Source: Mucilaginibacter kameinonensis
Lineage (GTDB): Bacteria > Bacteroidota > Bacteroidia > Sphingobacteriales > Sphingobacteriaceae
Length of the DNA: 64,000 nucleotides
Assembly (NCBI RefSeq): GCF_003675385.1
Contig: NZ_RCWZ01000004.1
Coordinates: forward strand, 868,001-932,000
Direction: 5' to 3'
The first letter of the stretch is position 1; every line of letters begins with the position of its first letter. Shown here in pieces: positions 60,174 to 61,969 of this stretch. A program made the translations under genes and the position numbers. The notes under the pieces were generated by a model. It did not search any database, was not told where the DNA came from, and saw only the letters and a program-made list of their open reading frames with translations.

Positions 60174-60596
60174 TTAAAACGACAGCGGCAACATATTGAT
60201 CTTCGCAAAAGTTTTGAGCATCAAAACGGTAGCATGATTGTTGTCGCCAATAAAATTTGAGTTTGATGGATTTAAATAGCCCTCTATTAATTCCAATACG
60301 TCCGCATTTACTGAAGCAAAAGCCATTGACCAGTTGGAGAAAATCCTTTCTTCAACACTTCCGGATACCATTAAAATAATGTTACGATGACGAGAGTCGA
60401 GTGTGATAGCGTTATAGATAACGTAAAGATTTTCTTTTTCACCCTCAAGGGCTTGAATAAAAGTACCTTCACTATAAAGGAGCATACCTGTCACATTATG
60501 TTCGGCATTTTTTATCCGTGCTGCTTGTAACAGATCCAATAGTTCTGCATCGCTCATGAATTTTTTTGCCGTGCTTACATAAACAAGATATTCCAT
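60174..60596 (-). CDS. BLUF-domain blue-light sensor, photoactive residue set complete
   Basis: A 140-aa FAD-binding BLUF protein. The key residues by alignment to PixD/AppA are present: Tyr6 (LVYVSTA), Asn30 (RIKNAEHNVTG), Gln48 (GTFIQALEG), Trp89 and Met91 (NWSMAF). The Tyr-Gln pair undergoes the light-driven hydrogen-bond switch that shifts FAD absorption. It has a short C-terminal tail (NFIGDNNHATVLMLKTFAK) and no output domain, so it must act through a partner. A second BLUF gene with a changed residue lies immediately upstream on the same strand. Confidence 0.9.
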   Translation of the reverse strand: MEYLVYVSTAKKFMSDAELLDLLQAARIKNAEHNVTGMLLYSEGTFIQALEGEKENLYVIYNAITLDSRHRNIILMVSGSVEERIFSNWSMAFASVNADVLELIEGYLNPSNSNFIGDNNHATVLMLKTFAKINMLPLSF

Positions 60597-60694
60597 GAAA
60601 TTAGGGTCAATATTACCTCCTCAATATACGAAGAGTTAATACAAAAAAAGCACAAAAAATGTTAATGTATCAACCCAGTTTCTAACCTAAATAA

Positions 60695-61135
60695 CTAATT
60701 GAACAGCGTAAAAACGGGTGTTGCAAGCCTGTTACTTTCTGCAAAGGTTTTCACCATATTTACAGTGGGGTGATTATTAACATCAGCTGCAAAACTCATC
60801 TTTGCCGGGTTTAAGTAACCTTCAACCACTTCAAGCACATCCGCGTTAACCGATGCGAAAGACATCGACCATTTTGAAAAAATCCGTTCGTTAAGTATTC
60901 CGCTGATCATCACAATGATGTTACGATGCCTGAAATCGGCCTGGATGGCATTATAAACCCTGTGCAGATCTTCCTTTTCACCTTCAAGAACCTGCAAAAA
61001 GGTTCCTTCGCCATAAAGAAGCATTCCGGTAATGTTGTTTTCGGAGTTTTTTGACCTGGCCGATTGCAGCAGGTCCAATAGTTCGGCATCGCTCATTAGC
61101 TTTTTAGCGGTGCTAATAAATACAAGATATTCCAT
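60695..61135 (-). CDS. BLUF-domain paralog with Phe in place of the photoactive Tyr
   Basis: A 146-aa close paralog of the gene at 60174; most of the first 110 residues match. At the position of the photochemically essential Tyr it has Phe6 (LVFISTA), while Asn30, Gln48 (GTFLQVLEG), Trp89 and Met91 (KWSMSF) are kept. Published BLUF Tyr-to-Phe mutants lose the normal photocycle, so this protein probably binds FAD but does not signal in the usual way. It may partner with, or regulate, the other BLUF protein. The 98-base gap suggests co-transcription. Confidence 0.88.
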   Translation of the reverse strand: MEYLVFISTAKKLMSDAELLDLLQSARSKNSENNITGMLLYGEGTFLQVLEGEKEDLHRVYNAIQADFRHRNIIVMISGILNERIFSKWSMSFASVNADVLEVVEGYLNPAKMSFAADVNNHPTVNMVKTFAESNRLATPVFTLFN

Positions 61136-61207
61136 ATAGAAATAAAATTAGGGGCTATTTTATTTTCATAACTACGAAGAAAAAGAGGCGGTGGTTTTAT
61201 GTCGATG

Positions 61208-61969
61208 TTAAAAAGTCAATTTTAACCCGTCATAAGCCAGTTCGATACCCGCAGGTAGTTCTTTAGAAACATCGGCATGTTTGCCCAGCCTGTGGCTGAT
61301 GTGCGTAAAATAGGTGGTTTCCGCGCCAATATCATTGGCAAAAGCAATGGCTTCGCTAAGTGTAAAATGCGAGATATGAGTTTCCTTTTGCAGGGCATTT
61401 ATCACCAGCGTTTTGGTACCCCTTATTTTTTCCTTCTCAGCGTCCGGAATTGTTTTGGCATCGGTGAGATACGTAAAATCTTTGATCCTGAAACCTTTGA
61501 TGGGAAGCTTATAATGAAACACCTCGATGGGGATAAGCTCAACATTACCTATCCTAAACGGATCAAGCGCGATAGTATGCATTTTTACCTGCGGAATACC
61601 AGGATAACCTGTGCCATCAAAAATGTAAGGAAATTCACGCGTCAAAGCTTTTTGAACCCGTTCATCCGCATAAATATCAATAGGTGCGTTTTGCTTGTAG
61701 TTAAACGCCCGGATATCATCCATGCCGGCAACGTGGTCTTTATGCTCGTGGGTAAAAACTATAGCGTCCAGATGCTGTACATTGGCGCGAAGCATTTGGT
61801 ATCTGAAATCGGGACCCGAATCGATAGAAATGACCTTATCTTCGGCCTCAATTAAAATAGAGCTGCGCAGGCGCTTATCATGCTTATCTGCCGAGAGGCA
61901 TACCTCACAATTACACGCTATAACAGGTACGCCCTGCGATGTTCCGGTTCCTAAAAATGTTATGGTCAC
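61208..61969 (-). CDS. PhnP-like MBL-fold metallo-hydrolase
   Basis: 253 aa with the zinc motif HEHKDH (74-79, FTHEHKDHVAGMDD) and the PhnP-like Cys motif CNCEVCLS (19-26). Further ligands appear in LIPIEVFHY and TYFTHISHRLGKH. PhnP is a cyclic-phosphate phosphodiesterase; more generally the family cleaves phosphoesters. Its ATG overlaps the stop of the upstream 93-aa gene (ATGA), so the two are translationally coupled. Confidence 0.88.
   Translation of the reverse strand: MTITFLGTGTSQGVPVIACNCEVCLSADKHDKRLRSSILIEAEDKVISIDSGPDFRYQMLRANVQHLDAIVFTHEHKDHVAGMDDIRAFNYKQNAPIDIYADERVQKALTREFPYIFDGTGYPGIPQVKMHTIALDPFRIGNVELIPIEVFHYKLPIKGFRIKDFTYLTDAKTIPDAEKEKIRGTKTLVINALQKETHISHFTLSEAIAFANDIGAETTYFTHISHRLGKHADVSKELPAGIELAYDGLKLTF

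Follow-up and report, generated by a model that had tools for sequence, protein, structure and literature searches.

The window, a 64,000-nucleotide stretch of the genome of the soil bacterium Mucilaginibacter kameinonensis, carries on its minus strand two adjacent genes encoding BLUF-domain proteins that are 70% identical to each other; the genome, of 7.33 Mb, has no further BLUF match. The upstream copy (the Phe6 copy) has phenylalanine at position 6, where the photoactive tyrosine of the first strand is expected; the downstream copy (the Tyr6 copy) retains the tyrosine. The features of the locus are as follows.

61208 to 61969, minus strand: MBL-fold hydrolase gene (Lactamase_B_2, PhnP-like), a conserved neighbor of the BLUF genes, assigned by Pfam, sub-threshold NCBIfam scores and synteny.
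61136 to 61207, minus strand: stretch before the Phe6 gene, with CGTA and CCCTAATNT blocks identical to those before the Tyr6 gene, by alignment.
61135 to 60695, minus strand: Phe6 BLUF gene, the upstream copy, 146 amino acids (MEYLVF...), defined by its open reading frame, PF04940, residues and orthologs in four further species.
61118 to 61120, minus strand: TTT (Phe), the sixth codon of the upstream gene, where the photoactive Tyr codon is expected; read from the sequence, TTT in all five orthologs.
60698 to 60721, minus strand: C-terminal end of the Phe6 protein, TPVFTLFN; P140, T143, L144, F145 and N146 are invariant in all five orthologs.
60597 to 60694, minus strand: intergenic stretch before the Tyr6 gene, with the CGTA and CCCTAATNT blocks, by alignment.
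60596 to 60174, minus strand: Tyr6 BLUF gene, the downstream copy, 140 amino acids (MEYLVY...), defined by its open reading frame, PF04940 and residues.
60579 to 60581, minus strand: TAT, the sixth codon of the downstream gene, encoding the photoactive Tyr; read from the sequence.

Against a Pfam BLUF (PF04940) cut-off of 25 bits, the Phe6 copy scores 98.5 (E-value 2.4e-28) and the Tyr6 copy 97.3 (5.7e-28), and on this measure both are BLUF-domain proteins by descent. Positions 6, 30, 48, 89 and 91 read F/N/Q/W/M for the Phe6 protein and Y/N/Q/W/M for the Tyr6 protein, Asn30, Gln48, Trp89 and Met91 being present in both. An earlier note on this DNA had described a tandem of close BLUF paralogs, the downstream one with the full residue set and the upstream one with Phe6 and the rest intact; coordinates, family scores and identity bear out the first part of that description, and the second holds residue by residue. 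Judged by these residues, the Tyr copy alone can be classed as a BLUF photoreceptor by mechanism: it has the strand-1 tyrosine here and in the three other genomes with such a tandem, and the upstream gene has phenylalanine in all five of its orthologs. An AlphaFold model of the Phe6 protein, built from a seven-row alignment, is of low confidence (pLDDT 55.7). Both genes also narrowly exceed the cut-off of 25 for the Pfam family TEX47 (testis-expressed protein 47), with 25.9 for the Tyr6 gene (60174-60596) and 26.8 for the Phe6 gene (60695-61135).

Slr1694 (SyPixD) and Tll0078, both found among the PDB sequence matches, are short BLUFs which, like the window proteins, consist of a BLUF domain without an effector domain and keep the Asn, Gln, Trp and Met. 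The upstream copy differs from them in having Phe for the photoactive Tyr, and in its longer C-terminal end. BlsA is a further short BLUF photoreceptor.

BLUF matches occur in at least 88 of 149 Mucilaginibacter genomes. Among the matches listed, which leave the weakest outside the count, position 6 is Tyr in 138 of 145 and Phe in 7 of 145; the genus alignment comprises 150 open frames, five of which have no letter at this position and were excluded. Outside the genus, all 69 BLUF rows have Tyr (65 loci, high-scoring or hand-picked matches, all from the phylum of the window). Five of the seven Phe6 proteins are encoded by orthologs of the upstream gene, found among the matches listed in M. kameinonensis itself (G000), M. 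endophyticus RS1 (G015), M. gossypiicola Gh-48 (G026), G052 and Mucilaginibacter sp. SMC90 (G090), and all five use the codon TTT. The earlier note had proposed checking whether Phe6 is conserved in orthologs; since it is, in five of five, the contrary outcome, orthologs that all carry Tyr, did not occur, and a sequencing error or strain oddity is rejected on the shared TTT. The Phe6 copy is real, kept in five species and rare in our sample. A contig scan with patterns from the Phe copies returned three loci (L083-L085), all within these five species and counted once, and none of 18 pattern stretches in viral contigs was confirmed as a relative. A literature search covering a minority of subscription papers listed no natural Tyr-less BLUF.

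The other two Phe6 proteins of the genus, at L143 (357-803, genome G011) and L162 (366-830, genome G050), also exceed the Pfam cut-off. The first departs from the conserved pattern at positions 23, 89 (Trp lost) and 93; the second has lost Asn30 and Met91 and departs at 41 and 70 as well. A tree of 144 of the 150 genus rows (short ones dropped) requires three Tyr/Phe changes in total and places these two proteins elsewhere. We therefore rejected them as signs of a widespread Phe6 type, given their separate origins and the loss of further core residues.

Gene order was compared in 20 other chosen genomes, mostly those nearest in sequence (23 loci, three of which are duplicate records). As in the window, BLUF genes adjoin the MBL-fold hydrolase gene and a gene for a 93-amino-acid protein in 16 of the 20, and most of these 16 also have YdjC-type, 155-amino-acid and GDSL genes nearby, within the stretch fetched; at L013, L051, L014 and L030, representing four of the 20 genomes, this order is absent. 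Twelve of the 16 have a single Tyr BLUF, three have Phe6 followed by Tyr6, and SMC90 has Phe6 alone, so that the adjacent pair is found in four species (that of the window, G015, G026 and G052). All NCBIfam scores of the window hydrolase (61208-61969) lie under their curated cut-offs, and its steady adjacency to BLUF genes is no more than a lead and does not count as evidence for a common pathway.

The history of the pair was reconstructed from a tree computed with column 6 removed. The five Phe copies form a clade (support 100/99) with a long stem branch (0.29), and the nine Phe and Tyr copies group together (99/96); their nearest outsiders, from G009 and G038, are single-copy Tyr BLUFs, the eleven again being joined at 99/96. 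The nine-copy group nests among single-copy Tyr BLUFs that share its gene order. A clade of the four Tyr copies alone is not resolved by this tree, and the sister placement of G090 and G026 has a support of only 84/69. These relationships are best explained if, in an ancestor of the five species, an older Tyr BLUF gene beside the PhnP-like hydrolase gene underwent a single tandem duplication. In the simplest reading, Tyr6 of the upstream copy then changed to Phe, and G090 later lost its Tyr copy. Because the CGTA and CCCTAATNT blocks are common to both upstream stretches, each copy could have a promoter of its own; the genes may have been duplicated together with a promoter and may each be transcribed separately.

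Mucilaginibacter sp. SMC90 is the exception among the five, the Phe and Tyr copies co-occurring in the other four. Its Phe copy is its sole BLUF: the gene lies on one contig of 8.1 Mb, whose title describes it as a complete chromosome (genome completeness 100, contamination 10), and a protein search of the genome found no second one. From the Phe6 stop codon onward, its DNA aligns with that of G015 starting 8 bases past the Tyr6 stop (79% over 397 bases), as would be expected from deletion of the Tyr gene. The first 47 bases of this stretch also match G026 DNA between the Phe6 and Tyr6 genes, so more than one junction point is possible for the deletion. In the SMC90 protein (L036:2435-2920), His70 is replaced by Tyr, at a position that is His in 95.6% of 136 genus Tyr BLUFs. 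A rough three-point estimate of dN/dS on its branch (0.056/0.316) is slightly higher than that for G026 (0.036/0.337) and far below neutrality; together with the His70Tyr change, this could mark the start of decay in SMC90.

By the Nei-Gojobori method, dN/dS ranges from 0.042 to 0.141 over ten Phe-Phe pairs and from 0.013 to 0.078 over six Tyr-Tyr pairs, a pattern of substitution by which the Phe copies are under purifying selection, perhaps a little less constrained than the Tyr copies. Reversion to tyrosine would take one base (TTT to TAT) and is absent in all five, at synonymous distances of up to about 1.1. In the 136 genus Tyr BLUFs, 20 columns reach a conservation of at least 90%, and from these the Phe clade departs only at position 6 and, in SMC90 alone, at His70; N30, Q48, D67, R69, W89 and M91 are unchanged in all five. 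Over whole proteins, the five Phe copies have 13 fixed differences from the Tyr copies of the four tandems and from twelve single-copy proteins that share the gene order (positions 6, 7, 25, 60, 65, 66, 92, 113, 140, 143, 144, 145 and 146). None of these is a relocated Tyr or a new electron donor (Tyr, Trp or Cys), which leaves Trp89 as the remaining candidate donor. All five Phe copies are 146 amino acids long and end in PxxTLFN, six residues beyond the end of the Tyr6 copies, which are 140 amino acids long in all four cases and end in LSF; the twelve single-copy proteins have 137-141 amino acids.

The consequences of removing the BLUF tyrosine are known from laboratory mutants, in which, as in the Phe6 copy, Tyr is replaced by Phe and Trp is left as electron donor (AppA Y21F, SyPixD Y8F, OaPAC Y6F and bPAC Y7F; passages of PMC10799861 and PMC9486806). 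Sections of PMC10799861 describe AppA Y21F as ‘not photoactivatable’, report electron transfer from Trp to the excited flavin in AppA Y21F, SyPixD Y8F and OaPAC Y6F, followed in the latter two by a neutral flavin-tryptophan radical pair, and state that BLUF photochemistry differs among species. According to parts of PMC9486806, Tyr to Phe replacement yields a photoinactive protein in every case; OaPAC Y6F is photoinactive, yet light takes its flavin to the reduced form, bPAC Y7F forms a neutral semiquinone, and SyPixD Y8F undergoes a single transfer step only. An excerpt of PMC4682037 reports, second-hand, on a BLUF adenylate cyclase lacking the Tyr, whose activity was altered by the semiquinone with inverted polarity and reduced range. 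The earlier note's premise, that such a change abolishes the usual BLUF switching, agrees with the mutants as described in these parts of PMC10799861 and PMC9486806. In contrast to laboratory constructs, the Phe6 copy is natural, common to five species and under purifying selection.

Taken with its conservation, the loss of the tyrosine suggests that the Phe6 copy probably senses something other than light, or light by another route. The reading that we favor, with a probability of roughly 0.42, is that it works through the redox state or photoreduction of its flavin. The Phe6 protein would still bind flavin, the normal Tyr-Gln hydrogen-bond switch being impossible, and Trp89 would be the remaining aromatic donor beside the flavin, which light or a cellular reductant would reduce with no red shift. 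The flavin redox state would then act on a partner, perhaps one touching the longer C-terminal end, and the Tyr6 copy would stay an ordinary short BLUF light sensor. The retention of Trp89, Gln48 and Asn30 points most specifically to a flavin protein that would undergo photoreduction and not switching. Since AppA Y21F and OaPAC Y6F are photoinactive in the published accounts, as far as the sections cited go, photoreduction may be a laboratory side reaction only. It is possible, though doubtful, that the Phe6 copy is a natural Tyr-less BLUF that senses both light and redox state by flavin photoreduction from Trp89, and hence a BLUF counterpart of the cysteine-less LOV-like proteins, such as BAT-LOV, which have lost their photoactive residue in nature and respond to flavin reduction (part of PMC4682037). 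BAT-LOV is, however, a LOV and not a BLUF protein, and flavin binding and reduction were measured there (same excerpt), whereas the Phe6 copy is known from sequence.

A close rival to this flavin-redox reading, itself rather unlikely, is that the Phe6 protein is a constitutive regulator acting by protein-protein contacts without flavin signalling, its pocket being kept for folding. The absence of the photoactive residue, the length of the stem leading to the Phe copies and the invariant longer C-terminal end would all suit such a protein. Against it stand the six pocket and core residues that are unchanged throughout the clade, an argument of little power with five close orthologs; for the same reason, at 90% mean column identity, conservation of the pocket does little to prove that flavin is bound.

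The earlier note had proposed a light-active sensor paired with a dark-locked reference or heterodimer partner, and a Phe6 protein that forms mixed oligomers with the Tyr6 protein, or competes with it for a target, seems to us equally unlikely. The adjacency of the genes and their joint retention in four species favor it, the common upstream blocks would suit similar expression, and the Tyr-to-Phe mutants lack a normal photocycle (portions of PMC10799861 and PMC9486806). The conserved Phe/Tyr pair is the part of the proposal that stands, and the part that requires a partner is weakened by SMC90, where the Phe copy is retained and the search found no further BLUF. The fixed changes peculiar to the Phe copies and their longer end point to a separate function, and ‘dark-locked’ is not what the literature predicts: passages of PMC9486806 and PMC4682037 indicate that Tyr-less BLUFs can photoreduce flavin and are not simply locked in the dark state.

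Decay of a degenerating duplicate is very improbable. The unrelated Phe6 proteins at L143 and L162 have lost other core residues too, and SMC90 has its His70Tyr change, but the substitution pattern of the Phe copies (dN/dS 0.04-0.14, intact frames in five of five, synonymous distances up to about 1.1) contradicts it and led us to reject pseudogene status, and the copy missing from SMC90 is the Tyr copy, not the Phe copy. That a different tyrosine or Trp89 yields a true red-shifted signalling state is hardly credible, for although Trp89 is kept and BLUF photochemistry is species-dependent (sections of PMC10799861), there is no tyrosine among the fixed residues of the clade, and Phe replacement was photoinactive in every case covered by the cited part of PMC9486806.

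A lineage with a fixed, selected Phe amounts to a natural experiment on whether signalling by BLUF proteins is possible in the absence of the Tyr switch, and the Tyr paralog and the single-copy Tyr relatives serve as built-in controls.

Further tandem BLUF pairs, with Tyr6 in both copies, occur in at least eight genomes of the genus (G024, G135, G148, G122, G141, G140, G032 and G040; loci L037, L038, L030 and L039-L043). A further core residue is missing from one copy in G024 (Met91 to Ser) and from one in G135 (Asn30 to Tyr), and G040 has its second copy broken across two frames.
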